From NCBI RefSeq assembly GCF_017868775.1, contig NZ_CP053381.1, positions 3,348,001-3,412,000 on the forward strand: a stretch of 64,000 nt of DNA, in the 5' to 3' direction. Under the pieces are notes generated by a model. It was not told where the DNA came from. It ran no database searches and saw only the letters and a list, made by a program, of their open reading frames with translations. The DNA comes from Billgrantia sulfidoxydans (GTDB lineage: Bacteria; Pseudomonadota; Gammaproteobacteria; Pseudomonadales; Halomonadaceae). Below are positions 2,653 to 48,915 of this stretch, piece after piece. Position 1 is the first letter of the stretch; every line of letters starts with the position of its first letter. A program made the translations under genes and the position numbers.

Positions 2653-2746
2653 GGCATTCCCGTGAGGCAGGTAACCGAAGCGCCGGCTGACAACTGGCCG
2701 ACGGCCGCCTACATTGTGCCCAGACCCACCAACGCTTTTCCATCGC

Positions 2747-2761
2747 CGTAATAAAACTACA
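2747..2761 (+). promoter_or_regulatory. Probable HexR operator upstream of edd
   Basis: The 15 bases match the published gammaproteobacterial HexR pattern TGTARTWWWAYTACA at 14 positions; only the first base differs. The site lies about 90 bp before the edd start, and hexR itself is encoded at 18655. HexR repressors are released by 2-keto-3-deoxy-6-phosphogluconate, the product of Edd. The match is seen directly; binding is inferred. Confidence 0.65.
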
Positions 2762-2807
2762 TACTTTCGACGAGGCGCCTTCAAATTTGCCATGCGATGG
2801 GAGACAA

Positions 2808-2822
2808 TTGTGTAAATTTACA
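2808..2822 (+). promoter_or_regulatory. Second palindromic element in the edd promoter
   Basis: TGTAAATTTACA at 2811-2822 is a perfect 12-bp palindrome 29 bp before the edd start. The 11-base string TTGTGTAAATT at its left (2808-2818) recurs just upstream of zwf on the coding strand (18477-18487). It may be a second HexR half-spaced site or the operator of another regulator of both operons. Confidence 0.5.
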
Positions 2823-2851
2823 TTCATCGCCCAACGACGCGAGGTGCTCTC

Positions 2852-4734
<1,883 letters not shown>

Positions 4735-41404: not shown

Positions 41405-42036
41405 ACACATCCCACCACTTGGTGCTGGAGGATATCCATATCGCTCTGGTCGGGTCGCCCCTGCTGTCACTCGATGCCGAAATCGGCCCAGGCGAGGTGC
41501 TCACCGTCATGGGGCCTTCCGGCTCCGGCAAGTCGACCCTGCTGGCCTACCTGGCGGGCTTTCTCGCACCGTCCTTTCAGGCCAGCGGACGGATCCTGCT
41601 CGACGGGCGCGACATCAGCCGGCTGCCGGCGGAACGGCGCGGCATCGGCCTGCTGTTCCAGGACCCGCTGCTGTTTCCGCACCTCTCGGTCGCGGGCAAC
41701 CTGCGCTTCGGCATGCCCCGCGCCGTCCCCGACAAGGCAGGGCGAATCGAGGCAGCGCTGGAGCAGGTTGGCCTGGGAGGTTTCGGGTCGCGCGATCCCG
41801 CGACGCTGTCGGGCGGTCAGAAGGCGCGTGTGGCCCTGATGCGCCTGCTGCTCGCCGAGCCCTGCGCCGTGCTGCTCGACGAACCCTTCTCCAAGCTCGA
41901 CCGACCGCTACGCCACGACATGCGCCGGCTGGTCTTCGACCGGCTGCGCGAGGCGGGCCTGCCCAGCCTGCTCGTCACCCATGACAGGGAGGACGCCGAG
42001 GATACCGGCGGCCGGGTGATCGAACTCAGTCACTGA
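41401..42036 (+). CDS. YnjD-like ABC transporter ATP-binding protein
   Basis: ATPase subunit of 211 residues for the YnjBCD-type importer. Walker A GPSGSGKST is at 38-46, the signature LSGGQKARVALMRLL around 139-153, Walker B AVLLDEPFSKLD around 159-170, and the switch His in VTHDREDAEDTGG. It has no C-terminal regulatory domain. The 3' end overlaps the convergent DinB-like gene by 11 bp. Confidence 0.92.
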   Translation: MNTSHHLVLEDIHIALVGSPLLSLDAEIGPGEVLTVMGPSGSGKSTLLAYLAGFLAPSFQASGRILLDGRDISRLPAERRGIGLLFQDPLLFPHLSVAGNLRFGMPRAVPDKAGRIEAALEQVGLGGFGSRDPATLSGGQKARVALMRLLLAEPCAVLLDEPFSKLDRPLRHDMRRLVFDRLREAGLPSLLVTHDREDAEDTGGRVIELSH

Positions 42037-42619
42037 GAGCGAGCCTGGGTTTGCTCGACCTGGCGAAGGAGCCTGTCTGAGGTGGGGTTGCACTTCGCTG
42101 CCAGAATCGAAGCGTCGATGGGTGGACGCCGAAATGCGCCGGCAGGGTCACGCCGAGGCTCTCCGCCATCATTCCCAGCAGGGCCATGTGATGCACCGTA
42201 TGGCTGGTCAAGAACGCCAGCTCGCGCGCCAGGCTGGTGGTCAACGACAGGCATCCGCTGGCCCCCTCGACGGGGTATCGCACCCTCAACGTGGCCGACT
42301 GATGCGCCTCCAGGCATGACAGCGCGGTGCCGATCGCGACAAGCCTCGCAACGGCCAAGGACGGCTCGGCTTCGAGCCGTTGGTCCCGCCGGCGGTTCTC
42401 ATAGTCGATACTGCCAACTCCCGCGCCGGCCAGCAGGGCATCGTAGTGGTCGAGGATATGGCGCACGTGCTTGCCCAGGCTCTGGCGCCTCGTCGGGCCG
42501 AAGGCGTGCCGATAGACGGCGGGCGCCAGCCGCTCCAGGAACGTCTGCAATTGATGCAGGGCCAGCCGGTTCTCCTCGATGAGGCTGTCGAGACAGGCAG
42601 TGTCTTGTGGTTCGCTCAT
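42026..42619 (-). CDS. DinB-like four-helix protein
   Basis: A 197-residue protein of the DinB/YfiT-like superfamily, known for metal-binding four-helix bundles with varied or unknown functions. Candidate metal His residues are in KHVRHILDHYDALLAG (about 49-64) and SHTVHHMALLGMM (about 139-151), the pattern expected of this fold. It is on the same strand as the ligase and acidic-tail genes upstream (94 bp gap with a hairpin), so it may share their transcript. No function can be read from the sequence. Confidence 0.82.
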   Translation of the reverse strand: MSEPQDTACLDSLIEENRLALHQLQTFLERLAPAVYRHAFGPTRRQSLGKHVRHILDHYDALLAGAGVGSIDYENRRRDQRLEAEPSLAVARLVAIGTALSCLEAHQSATLRVRYPVEGASGCLSLTTSLARELAFLTSHTVHHMALLGMMAESLGVTLPAHFGVHPSTLRFWQRSATPPQTGSFARSSKPRLALSD

Positions 42620-42660
42620 GCGCCTTTCCTCTTGGGTGGACGGGCCTCGGATTGCCGGCT

Positions 42661-42691
42661 CCGTACCGGGTCACGTCAGTGCCCGGCACGG
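42661..42691 (-). terminator. Hairpin between the acidic-tail gene and the DinB-like gene
   Basis: CCGTACCGGG at 42661-42670 pairs with CCCGGCACGG at 42682-42691; one A-C mismatch on the plus strand becomes a G-U pair in the minus-strand transcript, so the hairpin favours minus-strand RNA. It lies 22 bp after the precursor stop, without a U tract. Confidence 0.45.
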
Positions 42692-42713
42692 AACACGGCG
42701 GGACGAGACATCC

Positions 42714-42992
42714 CTAGGTGCCTTCGGCCTCGGCTTCCGCTTCTCCTTCCGCTTCGCCCTCGGCCTCGCCCTCTGGCTCACCTTCCGCTTCAGGCTTCTT
42801 CTCCTCGTGCGCTTCGGCCAGCATCAGCGGCGCCTCCTGCCCACTGGTGTAGGCCGGCTGCGTGCCGGCCTCGTCGGCCGAGGCCTGCAGCGCGGCGCCA
42901 CTGGCCACCAGCGCCAAGGCGGGGGCCGCGTAGCCGAGACGGCGGCTTAGCCGGCTCAGCAGCGTGCGGCGCTTCTCCTCGTGCTCTGTCAT
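42714..42992 (-). CDS. Small protein with alternating-Glu C-terminal tail, candidate ligase substrate
   Basis: A 92-residue protein I do not recognise. The N-terminus is basic (KRRTLLSRLSRR, 7-18), followed by a hydrophobic stretch (about 20-36) and a possible signal-peptidase site ASA-D at 37-40, so it may be exported or use this part as a leader. A short linker has a single Tyr48. From Glu68 to Glu90 every second residue is Glu, with Ala, Gly or Pro between, ending in Gly-Thr; the encoding DNA repeats with a 6-bp period. AGGAG lies 8 bases before the ATG. The gene follows that of the tubulin-tyrosine-ligase-like protein by 128 bp on the same strand. I infer that it is the ligase substrate; this is untested. 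Confidence 0.75.
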   Translation of the reverse strand: MTEHEEKRRTLLSRLSRRLGYAAPALALVASGAALQASADEAGTQPAYTSGQEAPLMLAEAHEEKKPEAEGEPEGEAEGEAEGEAEAEAEGT

Positions 42993-43120
42993 ATCGTCTT
43001 CTCCTTCAGGGTCTTGATGTGAAGGCGGCATGCAGCATAGGGCTGTCACGCCGCCTGGCAACGAAACGGGCTCATCGAGCTCGCTTCGACAGGTGGCCCA
43101 CATGGTGGGTCACCGGCTGC

Positions 43121-45460
43121 TCAGTTCCCGGCCGCCATCGAGTCGGCCGGGGTGGGTTGGGAGACGTCCAGTTGAGTCAGCGTGGATTCGACGCCGACCG
43201 TCCAGCACGCTCTACCCTCCAGCCAGCGGTCCAGCTGCTGTATCGTCTCCGCCGAAGGGGGCACGCCGCCTGCCGTGCGACAGCCCGGCAGCAGCACCCC
43301 CAGGGCGTCGAGCCGGGACAGCGGCGTGGGGGTAGCGGGGGCGGACTCCGTGCCGGCCATGACCCAGACCGGCAGCTCGCGTGGCAGCATCGGGAGAGCT
43401 TCCGCCTCGCTCCAACCGGCTCCCGGCCCTGGCAGGCCGAGCGGTTCCAGACGCACCTCCTCGCCCTCCGCCGTCAGCCTGACGCCACGGGAGAACCGGC
43501 TGCGGAGCGCCGAAGGCAGGGCGGCAAGCGCCTCCCGCGCTTGGGGTTCGCCGGCGACGCATAGCGCGACGCTGCCCGCCGGCGTCACCACCAGATGGGC
43601 GTCGATCACCGGCTGCCCCGGCCCCGCGGCCTGACGCAGCAGGAACTCCGTCAGTGCCGGCACGATGGCTGGGAGCGTCAGGCGGGAGGCGATCAGCGTG
43701 TCATCGGAGGCCAAGGCATAGCCCGCCGCCGCCTTCAGCAACGCCAGCCGCGGCAGTTCCCGGGCCGCCTCGGCGGAGAGCGGCAGGAGCCCGTCCCCGA
43801 ACCCCGCCTGCAGGTGCTCCATGGCAGCGACGTCGGCCACCTCCAACGCCCAGCGCCGCTGCTCATGGGCCAGCAGCACCGTCTGGCCGGCCTCGTCATT
43901 CGCCGACGGTGCGCCAGCAGCAGCATCGTGTTCCGGCAGCGCGATCCCCTCGTCGCCACGCTGGCACAGCAGGCCCAGGCGGCACCACTCCGCAAGCGTC
44001 GACCCCACCTCTCCGCGCAACGACTCGGCGCCAGGGGCATCCTCCGCCTCGGCGGTCGCCGCCCCCAGCGCCTCGACGATCACCTCGGGTTCGAGCCCCT
44101 CGGTGGCCAGCAGCCAGATCAACGCCGCGGTGTCGTTGGGGCGATAGAGGCGACCACTCTCGGCGTCGTAGAGGGCCAACTGCTGGTCGTCGTAGACCTC
44201 GCTGACGCGACGGCGCATCAGCTTGGGACGCGGCACACGGCGGCCGGCCAAACCATCGGCCAGCGCCAGGTCCTCAGGCGTCGGCAGGGGAAAGTACGCC
44301 AGGTAGCGCTCGGGGTCGGCGGCGGGCAGCAGGCGCTGGAAGCCGCCGGCCCTGGCCAGCTCCGCCTCGGCTTCGGCCAGCGGGTCGGGGGCTTCGGCAG
44401 CATCGCCGTCAGCGAGGCCGGTCAGCGCGATCAGGTCGCGCACCAGGTCGCCCTTGATCCCCTCCTCGATGAGCCCGCCGCTTTCCGGTGCGGCACAGGT
44501 CCCAAGCGACGGGCTCAGGTTGCATTCGAGGATCCACGGCTTGAGGGTGTCGTCGATCAGGCAGTCGAGCCCCAGCAGCTCGTAGCAGCCCCTGGGATCG
44601 GCGCCCAAGGCGGCGGTACGGCTTCGCATCGCATCGACCCCGGCGATGGCGGTAAGACTCACGAGCTCCTCGATGCGCGCGAACAGCGCCGCGTCGTCGT
44701 GCCCTTGCTCGCGCAGCCAGGCGCGGTAGCGGTCGAGATCGATGAACTCCACCGGCACCTCGGCGCGGGTGTTGAGCGCATTGATGTCGGGATTGGTCAG
44801 CTGGCTGTAGGGGTTGTCGGCGTCGTCCGGGTCCCAGGGCTCGGAGGCGAGCTTGGCGAAGCCTTGGCGATAGAGATAGACCCGCAGCGGCGCGAGTGAG
44901 GCGATCAGCACGTAGAGCCGCAGCACGTACTTGTGCCCCCGAATGGTATGCGGTTGGTCGAGATACTCCTGGACCAGCCAGTCGGGCGCCAGCGGCGCCT
45001 CGCCGACGTCGCGCAGCACCCGTACGCCCTTGCCCTTGGAGGCATTGGTCGGCTTGAGGATCCAGCGCTGGGCGGGATTGCCCCGAGCGGCCTGCTGCAG
45101 CGCATGATAGTCGTGCGGCATGACATAGGCGCGAGGGAAGAAATCCAGCCTCGAGGTCAAGGGATGCTGCGCCCCGAAACCTTCGGCCATGCGCGTGCGC
45201 AGGTTCGCCAGGCTCTCGTGCAGCCGGCTCTTGACGGTCAGCGCCGCATTGCCGGGAACGTGGTTGATGCGGCGCCGGGGCGAGGCGTTGCGGAACTGGG
45301 CTGGCTCGGGCATGCCGGTCACCCACGCACTGTCCCACTGCTGCGCGTCGCCCTCTTCCCAGCCCCGGGCTTCGAGGGCCTCGCGAAAGAACCGATCCTG
45401 CTCGGCGGCCCGCCTGCCCGCCAGCCAGAAACGCCGCGGGGGCGGCTGCTGTTCCGTCAT
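43121..45460 (-). CDS. Tubulin-tyrosine-ligase-like ATP-grasp / PqqD-like fusion protein
   Basis: A 779-residue multidomain protein. Residues about 60-350 are a TTL-type ATP-grasp ligase: Lys136 in WILKPTN, glycine-rich KGKGV at 142-146, VQEYL at 163-167, IRGHKY then Arg181, LTNPDIN at 221-227 (TTL proteins have LTNYSIN), and ELLGLDCLID with Asp299 and LECNLSPSL with Glu312 and Asn314, the metal ligands. The usual Asp of KFDxR is Val179. About 415-505 resemble PqqD (YRPNDTAALIWLL at 439-451), a peptide-binding fold. The rest (about 520-779) may be a degenerate HprK-like domain; no P-loop is visible. TTL enzymes ligate amino acids to acidic protein tails, and the next gene encodes such a tail. 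The ATG at 45460 has AGGAG upstream. Confidence 0.85.
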   Translation of the reverse strand: MTEQQPPPRRFWLAGRRAAEQDRFFREALEARGWEEGDAQQWDSAWVTGMPEPAQFRNASPRRRINHVPGNAALTVKSRLHESLANLRTRMAEGFGAQHPLTSRLDFFPRAYVMPHDYHALQQAARGNPAQRWILKPTNASKGKGVRVLRDVGEAPLAPDWLVQEYLDQPHTIRGHKYVLRLYVLIASLAPLRVYLYRQGFAKLASEPWDPDDADNPYSQLTNPDINALNTRAEVPVEFIDLDRYRAWLREQGHDDAALFARIEELVSLTAIAGVDAMRSRTAALGADPRGCYELLGLDCLIDDTLKPWILECNLSPSLGTCAAPESGGLIEEGIKGDLVRDLIALTGLADGDAAEAPDPLAEAEAELARAGGFQRLLPAADPERYLAYFPLPTPEDLALADGLAGRRVPRPKLMRRRVSEVYDDQQLALYDAESGRLYRPNDTAALIWLLATEGLEPEVIVEALGAATAEAEDAPGAESLRGEVGSTLAEWCRLGLLCQRGDEGIALPEHDAAAGAPSANDEAGQTVLLAHEQRRWALEVADVAAMEHLQAGFGDGLLPLSAEAARELPRLALLKAAAGYALASDDTLIASRLTLPAIVPALTEFLLRQAAGPGQPVIDAHLVVTPAGSVALCVAGEPQAREALAALPSALRSRFSRGVRLTAEGEEVRLEPLGLPGPGAGWSEAEALPMLPRELPVWVMAGTESAPATPTPLSRLDALGVLLPGCRTAGGVPPSAETIQQLDRWLEGRACWTVGVESTLTQLDVSQPTPADSMAAGN

Positions 45461-45753: not shown

Positions 45754-46710
45754 ATGCGAATCTCTCTGTTCCTGGCGGCCGGCGCACTGGCGTTTGCCGG
45801 TACCGCCCAGGCGATGCACCCCTCTCCCCTGGTCGATGCCGAGTGGCTCGATGGCCAACGAGACAATGACGATCTCGTGGTACTGGACGTGCGCTCCGCC
45901 ATTGACGACGGCGGCGACCGTGCCGCCTTCGAAGCCGCCCGAATTCCTGGCAGCCGCTACAGCAACTATGCCGAGGATGGCTGGCGCGAAGAGCGCGATG
46001 GCGTGGCCGGGCTGATGCCCGACGAGGAAAGCCTGGCCGAGCTGATCGGCGGCCTGGGCATCGGCAACGACACCACCGTGGTCGTCGTGCCCGCCGGCAC
46101 CGGTCCGACCGATTTCGGCAGCGCGGCCCGGGTCTACTGGACCTTCAAGGCACTCGGCCATGACGAGGTGACCATCCTCAACGGCGGCTTCGCCGGCTGG
46201 GAGCAGCAGGGCTTCGAGACCGCCAGCGGCCCGGTCGACCCGCCCGAGGCGGTCTCCTTCAGCACGACGCTGCGCGAGGAGCTGCTGGCCACCGACGAGG
46301 AGGTCGAAGCCTCCCGCCAGGCCGGCGAGCAGCTGGTGGACGCCCGCCCCGAGGGCTTCTACCGGGGTGAGGAGCAATCGCCCGCCGCTCGCGTGCCGGG
46401 CACCATCCCCGGCGCCGTGAACCTGCCCCACCACGACGCCCTGGTCGAACGCGACGGCGCCTGGTACCTGGAGCCCGAGCGGCTGACGGCGGCCATCGAT
46501 GCCCTGGCGCTGGATCGCGAGGCCCCCACCGTCGCCTTCTGCAATACCGGGCATTGGGCTTCCAGCGGCTGGTTTCAGCTCAGCGAGGTGGGAGGGCTCG
46601 ACAACGTCACCATGTACGACGGCTCCATGGCCGCCTGGACCCGCGACGATTCCCGTCCGGTGCAGCTGGCCGATCGCGACACCCTGAGGGTGGGCGAACT
46701 GCTCGATTGA
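45754..46710 (+). CDS. Periplasmic tandem-rhodanese sulfurtransferase
   Basis: Exported protein of 318 residues with a signal peptide (1-20, ending AQA) and two rhodanese domains. The first (about 25-150) has VVLDVR and the RIPGSRY loop, but PAGTGPTDFG stands where a Cys loop would be, so it is inactive. The second (about 180-315) has the loop CNTGHWASS with Cys263, the likely persulfide-forming residue. This is the usual SseA/thiosulfate sulfurtransferase plan of one structural and one active domain. A long hairpin follows (46772-46813). It has no evident metabolic partner nearby. Confidence 0.9.
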   Translation: MRISLFLAAGALAFAGTAQAMHPSPLVDAEWLDGQRDNDDLVVLDVRSAIDDGGDRAAFEAARIPGSRYSNYAEDGWREERDGVAGLMPDEESLAELIGGLGIGNDTTVVVVPAGTGPTDFGSAARVYWTFKALGHDEVTILNGGFAGWEQQGFETASGPVDPPEAVSFSTTLREELLATDEEVEASRQAGEQLVDARPEGFYRGEEQSPAARVPGTIPGAVNLPHHDALVERDGAWYLEPERLTAAIDALALDREAPTVAFCNTGHWASSGWFQLSEVGGLDNVTMYDGSMAAWTRDDSRPVQLADRDTLRVGELLD

Positions 46711-47295
46711 ATCGCAATGACCACGCTGCGCAGCGGTTCCACTCCTGCGACAGCCCCCTAAGCCGTTCGAGCCGCTGTCCCGGAGCGGCCACCACTTCGA
46801 CCCGGGACAGCGGAACGAGCCGACTCCTTGGCGGCGGGACACTGGCATCTATTCTGCGTTACAGACAGCAAGGCAATCACACGATTTGCTAAAAAACATC
46901 AGAAGAAAGGCCTACCAACCCCACCTAGACGACCTACCTCTTTTTTCGTCTGAGTGCGGGTGAAGCCAGCGCGTTTCCGTGTCGCCGCGCAGCGCCAGGC
47001 CCCGCTCACTGTGACGGCGAGTCAAGGAGCCTTATCACGTTGTAAACCCCGCTTTCCTTCCTTTTCGCTGTTGGCCCGGCTGAGTCCGACCCGCCTCCCC
47101 TCTGAGATTTCATTACCTAAGTTATGTGAGCATTTCTCTTCGCCGCAGTAGGATTCATCGTCTATACCTATGCAACGTCACCTTTTGACCAGCTTACTAT
47201 CGAGGCCAGGAAAAGCCCGAAAGCAAGCGTTTCATACTGGCAAAAGGGGGTTATCGCGGCGTATTGGCCATGCCACTACAGGGAGGTCCGTCACA
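46711..47295. other. 585-bp region between the sulfurtransferase and glgA genes
   Basis: No convincing gene. A 12-bp hairpin at 46772-46813 probably ends the upstream transcript. From about 46850 to 47290 the sequence is noticeably richer in A and T than its surroundings, as expected of the promoter and leader of the long glgA-treZ-malQ-treY operon. An in-frame extension of glgA reaches 47170 but is basic and not family-like. Confidence 0.5.
46772..46813 (+). terminator. Long hairpin after the sulfurtransferase gene
   Basis: CCGCTGTCCCGG at 46772-46783 pairs perfectly with CCGGGACAGCGG at 46802-46813 (12 bp, 18-base loop), 61 bp after the stop. No U tract follows; it may be a factor-dependent terminator or a REP-like element. 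Confidence 0.5.
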
Positions 47296-48915
47296 ATGGG
47301 CAATGTGGCACTGAAGGGTATCGATTCCGAAACAAAAAATGACAGGCCAGGTCGCTCGATCGTGGCCACCGACGACCTGCCCCTTGGGGTGTATCACGGC
47401 ACGAAGGGGGGGCGCGATCGCGGCAAGCCGTTCGGATTCGGCACGCCGAACCTTCCTTCGCAGCGCATCCTGTTCGTCACCGCCGAGATCGCCGATTTCG
47501 TCAAGGTCGGAGGGCTCGGCGACGTCTCATCCGCCCTGCCCCGGGCATTGGCGGCTCACCACGACATTCGCATTCTGCTACCGGCCTACCGTGAAGTCAT
47601 CGCCTCGTCACAAGAGATCCGCCGCGTCGGCCGGCTCCCGGCCTACGCCGAGCTGCCGGCCTGCGAGGTCGGCGAGATGACCTGCGCCGACGGCCTGGTG
47701 ATCTACGTGCTGCTCTGCCCCGAACTCTACGAGCGCGAAGGAGGGCCCTACGGCACCGGACCGGGCGGGTACGGCAGCAGCGGCTGGGACGACAACGACA
47801 TTCGCTTCGCCCGGCTGTCGCTGGCCGCCGCCGAGATCGCCGCCGGCCACGCCGGGCTCGACTGGCAGCCGCAGCTGTTGCACCTCAACGACTGGACGTG
47901 CGGCCTGGCACCGGCCTACCTGCAGTGGCAGGGGAGCCACGTCCCCAGCGTGTTCACCATCCACAACCTGGCCTATCAGGGCCTGTACGACGCGTCGCGC
48001 TGCGCCGCCCTGGGCATTCCCGACGATGCCTTTCAGATCGAGGGGCTCGAGTATTACGGCAAGCTCTCCTTCATGAAGGCGGGGATCGTCTATGCCTCTC
48101 ACGTGACCACGGTGAGCGCGACCTATGCCCAGGAGATCACCACCCCGGAGTTCGGCTGCGGTCTGCATGGCCTGCTGCGCTGCAAGGCGGAGCAGGGCCG
48201 GCTCAGCGGCATTCCCAACGGCATCGACGACTCCTGGGATCCGCGCACCGATGCTCACCTGGTGCAGGCCTTCTCGGCCAACGACTGGCGCGGCAAGCGC
48301 GCCAACGCCGAGTACGTGCGCCACCGCTTCGGCCTGGCCCCCAGCGCCGGCCCGCTGTTCGCCATGGTCTCGCGCATGGTGCACCAGAAGGGGGTCGACC
48401 TGGTCATCGAGGCGGCCCCCAGCATCGTCCAGGCCGGCGGCCAGCTGGTCTTCATCGGCAGCGGCGAGCGCCGCGTCGAGGCCCAGCTCGACCGCCTGGC
48501 CGAACGCTATCCGGGGGCCGTGGGCGCCTATATCGGCTTCGACGAGGACGAGGCCCGCTGCATCTACGCCGGCAGCGACTTCCTGCTGATGCCGTCGCGC
48601 TTCGAGCCCTGCGGCCTGAGCCAGATGTATGCCCAGCGCTTCGGCTCCCTGCCCATCGCTCACCGCACCGGCGGCCTGGCCGACACCATCGAGGACGGCG
48701 TGACCGGCTTCCTGTTCGACAAGGTCACCCTGGCCAGCTTCATGCAGGCGATCCAGCAGGCCTTCTCGGTCTATCACTCCACGGAGCTGTTCTACGCCAT
48801 GCGGCGGGCGGCCATGACCGGCCGCTATCACTGGCGCCAGTCGATCGCCCCTTATACGCAGCTCTACCAGCGCATCAGCGAAGAAGCGGGTGTGGAGGCA
48901 CGCACCACGGGATGA
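47296..48915 (+). CDS. glgA: Glycogen synthase
   Basis: Glucosyltransferase (GT5) that extends alpha-1,4-glucan from ADP-glucose. The 539-residue product has the donor-binding KVGGLGDV motif near residue 66 after an unusual 55-residue N-terminal extension, then HLNDWT, FTIHNLAYQG, and the C-terminal SRFEPCGLSQMYAQRFGSLPIAHRTGGL block (in parts, about 435-462) typical of GlgA. AGGGAGG precedes the ATG at 47296. Its TGA overlaps the treZ start. No glgC is in the window. It heads the operon that continues to treY. Confidence 0.94.
   Translation: MGNVALKGIDSETKNDRPGRSIVATDDLPLGVYHGTKGGRDRGKPFGFGTPNLPSQRILFVTAEIADFVKVGGLGDVSSALPRALAAHHDIRILLPAYREVIASSQEIRRVGRLPAYAELPACEVGEMTCADGLVIYVLLCPELYEREGGPYGTGPGGYGSSGWDDNDIRFARLSLAAAEIAAGHAGLDWQPQLLHLNDWTCGLAPAYLQWQGSHVPSVFTIHNLAYQGLYDASRCAALGIPDDAFQIEGLEYYGKLSFMKAGIVYASHVTTVSATYAQEITTPEFGCGLHGLLRCKAEQGRLSGIPNGIDDSWDPRTDAHLVQAFSANDWRGKRANAEYVRHRFGLAPSAGPLFAMVSRMVHQKGVDLVIEAAPSIVQAGGQLVFIGSGERRVEAQLDRLAERYPGAVGAYIGFDEDEARCIYAGSDFLLMPSRFEPCGLSQMYAQRFGSLPIAHRTGGLADTIEDGVTGFLFDKVTLASFMQAIQQAFSVYHSTELFYAMRRAAMTGRYHWRQSIAPYTQLYQRISEEAGVEARTTG

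Follow-up and report, generated by a model that had tools for sequence, protein, structure and literature searches.

A 64,000-nt stretch of the Billgrantia sulfidoxydans genome (contig NZ_CP053381.1, positions 3,348,001 to 3,412,000; hereafter the window) probably encodes a leader-guided system for tail modification, in which the PqqD module of a ligase would hold the leader of a small acidic protein, and a tubulin tyrosine ligase (TTL) domain would add amino acids to the repeated Glu residues before export. The ligase, the acidic protein and a DinB-like protein are encoded by three genes in a row on the minus strand (Table 1). The window comes from a genome of 4.49 Mb in a single contig (G000), and, judged by the ligase, Billgrantia and Halomonas are the nearest named relatives.

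Domains and catalytic residues of the ligase

The ligase gave the single match of the Pfam TTL search in its own genome, and the same search of 14 control genomes gave no match. Its catalytic set comprises K136, K177, R181, D299, E312, and N314, at positions that we take to be catalytic in TTL and that were mapped onto the ligase by alignment. This Lys/Arg/Asp/Glu/Asn set is invariant in 76 of 76 ligases from Gamma- and Alphaproteobacteria, a set of sequences that excludes five of 80 loci without an open reading frame (ORF) of >700 aa. Within the set aligned, the alphaproteobacterial ligases share 35–40% identity with that of the window, and leader and repeat are still kept. The nearest solved relatives of the TTL domain by sequence are the glutamylases TTLL6 and TTLL7 of the TTL-like (TTLL) proteins, followed by TTLL11. 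Gln180 of TTLL6, which is described as an elongase determinant in the available part of PMC12366701, is replaced by Lys in 51 and by Arg in 25 of the 76 ligases.

The C-terminal half of the ligase contains the PqqD-like module, a recognition element (RRE) of the kind found with ribosomally synthesized and post-translationally modified peptides (Pfam PqqD at residues 429–498, E 4.9e-6, above the curated cut-off). Its fold is nearest to those of the lasso peptide RREs TfuB1 and TbiB1. The remaining C-terminal region matches no Pfam family, and its predicted structure is a PEPCK/HprK-like fold; a P-loop is present in none of the 76 C-terminal parts. An earlier note on this DNA had proposed a TTL ATP-grasp ligase, a PqqD-like module, and a long extra C-terminal region, and all three have been borne out. 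A recognition role of the module is suggested by its predicted fold together with the YxxP-type leader of the partner protein. The conserved leader, the cytochrome substrates, and the kinase-like fold described here go beyond that note.

A conserved leader followed by a Glu repeat

A set of 80 loci, from 91 confirmed ligase relatives, was used for comparison. Proteins with both a leader and an acidic segment were identified by a script in 77 of these loci, 98 in total (67 small proteins and 31 with a CxxCH motif), and the window adds one small protein, giving 99. When 25 diverse leaders are aligned, M1, L11, L15, and P24 are the only residues shared by all, and the usual form is R-x-x-LL-x-x-L-S-R-x-L-x-Y-x-x-P-x-L. 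The Tyr of the YxxP element is found in 78 of the 99 leaders, the others having Val (9), His (7), or single other residues. Lasso RREs bind a YxxPx[L/V/I/F/A] element, according to the accessible text of PMC13381572, and the resemblance of the leader to this element fits a lasso-type RRE fused to the ligase. By eye, the leader motif is followed by a hydrophobic, Sec-signal-like stretch and a signal-like cleavage site. The leader search of the own genome found only one leader protein at a convincing E-value.

Glu accounts for 42% of the acidic segments of the small proteins and for 38% of those of the cytochromes described below, with Ala and Gly making up most of the remainder. The gap between successive Glu residues is exactly two in 1290 of 1612 cases, and four in 229. 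The earlier description of the 92-residue protein as having a tubulin-like, Glu-rich tail is thus correct as to the Glu-rich acidic tail and not as to its pattern, because Glu stands at every second residue, not in the clusters of tubulin. When the 1.14 Mb of the 80 loci plus the window were translated in six frames, 91 (E[GA])x6+ runs fell in the reading frame of a leader protein, with 83 of the 99 proteins represented, and a single run lay elsewhere. The repeats make use of every Gly codon and every Ala codon, four of each. The tails of the window and of locus L001 differ by 13 synonymous codon changes and one non-synonymous change, and all pairs of eight Halomonas loci together show 341 silent versus 83 non-silent changes. 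Distant pairs are less clear, with 12 synonymous and 12 non-synonymous changes between the window and L014, and 13 and 12, respectively, for L033. A chance or low-complexity artefact is ruled out by the codon variety, the mostly silent changes in close relatives, the 91-to-1 distribution of the runs, and the co-occurrence with the ligase.

The sole run outside of the leader proteins is situated at a contig edge (L070, 9596–9691) and is probably part of another repeat protein with its start cut off.

Cytochromes as further carriers

A monohaem c-type cytochrome domain follows the leader and repeat in 31 of 79 loci; it is Pfam SoxA/TsdA in the four examples scanned. Among 97 related cytochromes in the protein database, 65 pass both the strict leader and the strict repeat test. 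Most of the other 32 deviate in the leader, lack their start, or have only a short repeat, and in a few no more than a remnant is left. In two Pararhodobacter genomes, leader and Glu-X repeat are fused to a cytochrome P460-like domain, recognized below the Pfam cut-off. A sequence search of the PDB with a cytochrome substrate yielded matches mainly to the low-complexity stretch. In 12 alphaproteobacterial loci (L057, 4262–4750, and 11 alike), a second small c-type cytochrome adjoins the leader cytochrome.

Linkage and co-occurrence of ligase and leader proteins

The earlier note had named ligases that consistently lack a neighbouring acidic-tail gene as the observation that would speak against a coupled pair. 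In 77 of the 80 loci, a leader-plus-acidic protein lies no more than about 6 kb from the ligase, and the coupled pair thus withstands this test. The three loci without a partner in their flanks are L056, which is a 3-kb contig end, and the Pararhodobacter loci L064 and L067, for which the leader search found a protein on another contig of the same genome. An apparent lack of a partner in 14 loci was due to a strict motif that proved too strict, as 11 of the 14 carry a partner on reading.

Among 151 genomes of the family (own genome included), the ligase is present in 25, the leader in 25, and both in 24. At most 6 ligase and 45 leader candidates were scored per genome. Thus, the leader occurs in 24 of 25 ligase genomes versus 1 of 126 other family genomes (Fisher's p 1e-25, which is nominal since the genomes are related). 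The presence of the ligase is nevertheless patchy, i.e. 9 of the 24 genomes of the own genus contain it, and the carriers are some salt-loving and marine bacteria. There are two exceptions in the family, G293, which has only a ligase piece of 205 positions, and G391, which is discussed below; a second search in which all candidates were scored left both as exceptions. For comparison, 274 genomes of the class were searched, with at most 3 ligase and 25 leader candidates scored per genome. Four had a ligase and four a leader, three of them shared (the own genome included); the odd ones are G194 and G241.

The same PqqD module with other enzymes

Genome G241 encodes a fusion of an oxygenase and PqqD, which directly adjoins the gene of a leader protein. 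The fusion has a 2-oxoglutarate (2OG)-Fe(II) oxygenase domain (Pfam E 2e-10, residues 92–190), for which the nearest solved structures are PKHD-type and prolyl hydroxylases (E 5e-7 to 0.04), and a PqqD domain (E 1.3e-6). Its C-terminal part was found by a profile of the PqqD-plus-C-terminal part of the ligase (E 2.8e-8). The partner has the same type of leader (RRELLGRLGRFAAYTPPAML; leader search E 1.9e-5), which is followed by a Pro-rich tail, and a nucleotidyltransferase-like gene adjoins the pair. The TTL search gave no match in G241, and it was a weak search, since no genome gave a match. No second oxygenase-PqqD pair was found in the other genomes of this order (three searched, including G241). 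An oxygenase head is combined with a Pro-rich tail, and the TTL head with a Glu repeat, suggesting that head enzyme and tail chemistry change together.

The same profile found PqqD-HprK proteins in genomes G205 and G194, which have an apparent P-loop (GSGKST or GNGKST, by eye). Near to them, a short peptide with a RRxFLKKAGKFAVYTPPA leader and a nucleotidyltransferase-like neighbour are encoded. The fused module of the ligase may have arisen from stand-alone proteins of this type. G194 also encodes a stand-alone TTL, followed by a 248-aa protein with a leader of the WxxP type (RR...WTRPLVESVV...AHA); the two are perhaps another pair of TTL and substrate.

Taken together, the balance tips slightly towards a bacterial system similar to the tubulin code within a wider platform, in which a lasso-type RRE with a kinase remnant would dock a YxxP leader, and interchangeable heads would decorate matching low-complexity tails, i.e. 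a branch-starting TTLL glutamylase for Glu repeats and the G241 oxygenase of the hydroxylase type for a Pro-rich tail, before the carriers, including c-type and P460-like cytochromes, are exported.

Proposed mechanism and alternatives

We propose that the N-terminal leader of the substrate would dock in the PqqD domain of the ligase via its LLxxLSR and YxxPxL elements, as suggested by the PqqD fold and the leader motif. Docking would keep the unfolded Glu-X-Glu-X tail close to the active site of the TTL domain, which would use ATP to activate the side chain of a repeat Glu and join a free amino acid to it. This addition is suggested because catalysis is conserved, because the repeat is the main feature shared by the partners besides the leader, and because G241 offers a parallel. 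The amino acid would most likely be Glu, and branches would be started at many sites. The modified protein would then be exported, as indicated by the signal-like stretch after the leader and by the cytochrome fusions, c-type maturation being periplasmic. Since the ligase needs ATP and haem is attached to c-type cytochromes in the periplasm, the simplest order would be modification first and export second. As to the purpose, our guess is that the small periplasmic proteins and the cytochromes would gain a very dense negative charge, which may serve in docking or ion binding.

Several observations weigh against this proposal. The YxxP Tyr is absent from 21 of the 99 leaders, and some cytochrome relatives have only a short repeat. 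Genome G391 encodes a leader-repeat cytochrome (L103, 1501–2208), and no ligase was found in it with 38 of 38 candidates scored; the cytochrome may be an orphan substrate, or the ligase may have been lost recently, and an unmodified repeat may therefore still be useful. The oxygenase case comes from a single genome, at a contig end. The kinase-like fold at the C-terminus of the ligase is left without a role in the mechanism, and the sequence alone would also be compatible with a simple acidic linker whose partner is not an enzyme.

Glu is a better candidate than Gly for the amino acid added, given that glutamylases are the nearest relatives of the ligase; the match to 5vlq (listed as LOC100158544 protein), which we take to be a TTLL3-type glycylase, is weaker (E 4.7e-11). 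It is unlikely that the same leader-guided ligase modifies the Glu side chains with glycine, or with a different amino acid or an amine, in place of Glu. In its favour, TTLL relatives include glycylases that act on internal Glu residues, according to an excerpt of PMC12340829, and the active-site substitutions bear on branch start versus chain extension, not on the amino acid used. A graspetide-like cross-linking, in which Glu side chains would be joined to Lys, Ser, or Thr of the same protein, has a small probability. ATP-grasp ligases make such links in graspetides (PMC8939145, as far as its available part goes), and Lys is present in the repeats of Marinobacter and Robiginitomaculum (e.g. 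GEAKGEAE). However, 22 of 68 acidic segments of small proteins, and only these segments were counted, contain no Lys, Ser, Thr, Cys, Tyr, or His, and the best 50 fold matches listed for the whole ligase model are TTLL, TTL, or tubulin-TTL complex entries.

A ligation at the C-terminus, where Tyr or another residue would be added as TTL does on alpha-tubulin, is very improbable. An encoded Tyr after an EGEG-type tail does end 8 of the 68 small proteins (e.g. EGEGAY), recalling alpha-tubulin, but the other 60 have a different last residue, which is Gly in 38 of them. Moreover, in the cytochrome substrates the repeat lies within the chain and would stay untouched, and the domain is nearer to TTLL6 than to TTL. 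Tyrosination, which was among the chemistries of the earlier note, is disfavoured because the domain is closer to the TTLL6 and TTLL7 glutamylases than to TTL. We give hardly any weight to the idea that the ligase is a binding scaffold or export chaperone for acidic proteins that leaves them unmodified. The loss of the P-loop indicates that non-catalytic domains do occur in the ligase, but an invariant catalytic set is not expected of a dead enzyme, and a mere scaffold would not need the combination of a different enzyme domain with a different tail that is found in G241.

Gene order and neighbouring genes

The row of ligase, small protein, and DinB gene on one strand is kept in 59 of 79 loci. 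No DinB gene was found in the alphaproteobacterial loci, L034, L063, or L075. In the window, all DinB family matches of the third ORF are below the Pfam cut-offs, and its Marinobacter counterpart is above. The proposal of a DinB-like accessory stands as far as the conserved neighbourhood is concerned; we assign DinB no role in the tail chemistry. By eye, a purine-rich stretch resembling a ribosome-binding site lies ahead of each of the three starts. A sigma-70 scan found one promoter-like site (43061–43034), and a terminator scan of the region found no terminator-like site.

A DUF302 relative is present in 27 of 79 loci, usually after the DinB gene (e.g. L044, 9594–10127, and L035, 9485–9976); in the window, no DUF302 gene was seen after DinB. 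Upstream of the ligase, on the opposite strand, a two-domain rhodanese is encoded (45754–46710); 39 of 79 loci have a relative of it close to the ligase, which may be ordinary synteny only. The ORF at 47170–48915 is, by eye, glycogen synthase-like. Database names of ligase relatives include 'PqqD family peptide modification chaperone', 'tubulin polyglutamylase TTLL5', and 'amylase', which apparently are automatic annotations; 'amylase', given to several relatives, is probably a wrong name carried over. In P0003, a 920-aa ligase relative, a piece of the TTL domain is duplicated, which could be an assembly error.

Table 1. Coordinates of the ligase, its candidate substrate, and related features (window positions, or positions in the named loci)
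Feature	Position	Strand	Remarks
TTLL-type ligase with PqqD/RRE and C-terminal PEPCK/HprK-like domain	43121..45460	-	779 aa from its ATG
TTL/TTLL ATP-grasp domain	44486..45277	-	Pfam TTL residues 62-325, E 1.1e-50, above curated cut-off
PqqD-like RRE	43961..44227	-	residues about 412-500
C-terminal PEPCK/HprK-like fold, without P-loop	43145..43924	-	residues about 513-772
Acidic-tail substrate protein (candidate)	42714..42992	-	92 aa; no Pfam match
Leader, residues 1-40	42873..42992	-	LLSRLSRRLGYAAPAL, then signal-like hydrophobic stretch
Glu-rich tail, residues 58-92	42717..42821	-	Glu mostly every second position, Gly/Ala between
DinB-like protein, third gene of conserved row	42026..42619	-	197 aa
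Pararhodobacter leader-repeat P460-like proteins	L106 1501-2418, L107 1465-2394		contig other than that of the ligase
G241 oxygenase-PqqD fusion (610 aa) and leader protein	L110 784-2616 and 2613-2855		directly adjoining, contig end
PqqD-HprK proteins	L118 5135-6784 (G205), L119 1559-3065 (G194)		found by ligase PqqD-plus-C-terminal profile
G194 stand-alone TTL, without PqqD	L085 1429-2532		367 aa; then 248-aa protein 2728-3474

Implications and comparison with known systems

If the proposal is true, bacteria run their own tail glutamylation, in which an encoded modular tag, consisting of leader and repeat, can be attached to various proteins. The question of how TTLL enzymes choose their sites could then be studied in a simple soluble system, and a new leader-guided tool would allow chosen proteins to be given branched amino acids. 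There would also be a first hint as to why such repeats occur on the periplasmic cytochromes of halophilic and marine bacteria. The oxygenase case hints at one docking module serving several tail chemistries. As leader, enzyme, and substrate are single genes, the idea is directly testable.

The earlier note had known of no system with this combination, and we likewise found no description among the matches listed for the open-access literature; supplements or subscription journals might hold one. No open-access paper was found that joins 'tubulin-tyrosine ligase' (in the hyphenated spelling) and 'PqqD', and a term search of the main text available for two RRE surveys found neither tubulin nor TTL.

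SidJ and RimK are, to our knowledge, of other folds or families, act on other targets, and have neither an RRE nor a dedicated repeat substrate. The likeness lies in the reaction, as SidJ adds glutamate to proteins in bacteria, according to literature excerpts, and RimK is a case of bacterial protein glutamylation in the accessible part of PMC4431377. Graspetide ligases are presumably similar in that an ATP-grasp enzyme acts on Glu or Asp of a leader-bearing peptide; in contrast, the present enzyme is of the TTLL type, and 22 of 68 repeats lack a Ser, Thr, or Lys partner.

The PqqD-HprK sets of G205 and G194, which resemble HPr-rel-A (a name taken from a weak match to NCBIfam TIGR04353), share the profile of the PqqD-plus-C-terminal part and a nearby peptide with a YTPPA-type leader, but they keep the P-loop, lack a TTL part, and have a peptide without a Glu repeat. 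Lasso RREs (B1) share the PqqD-type fold and a leader with YxxPx[L..]. In the case of the linear polyphosphorylated peptides, an RRE acts together with an HprK-like kinase (PMC13381572, same part). Unlike in both of these systems, the RRE is fused here to a TTLL ligase, the HprK-like part lacks a P-loop, the leader runs into a signal-like stretch, and the substrates include cytochromes.

The eukaryotic enzymes TTLL6 and TTLL7 with the tubulin tails have in common with the present pair the ATP-grasp fold, the catalytic set, and an acidic, unfolded, Glu-rich target. They differ in that the ligase described here is bacterial, has a C-terminal half composed of PqqD and a PEPCK/HprK-like fold, and has Lys or Arg in place of Q180. 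The target, too, is apparently chosen by its leader, and Glu alternates with Gly or Ala. Both TTLL ligases and RRE-guided modification are known, each on its own, and it is their pairing that appears to be new.

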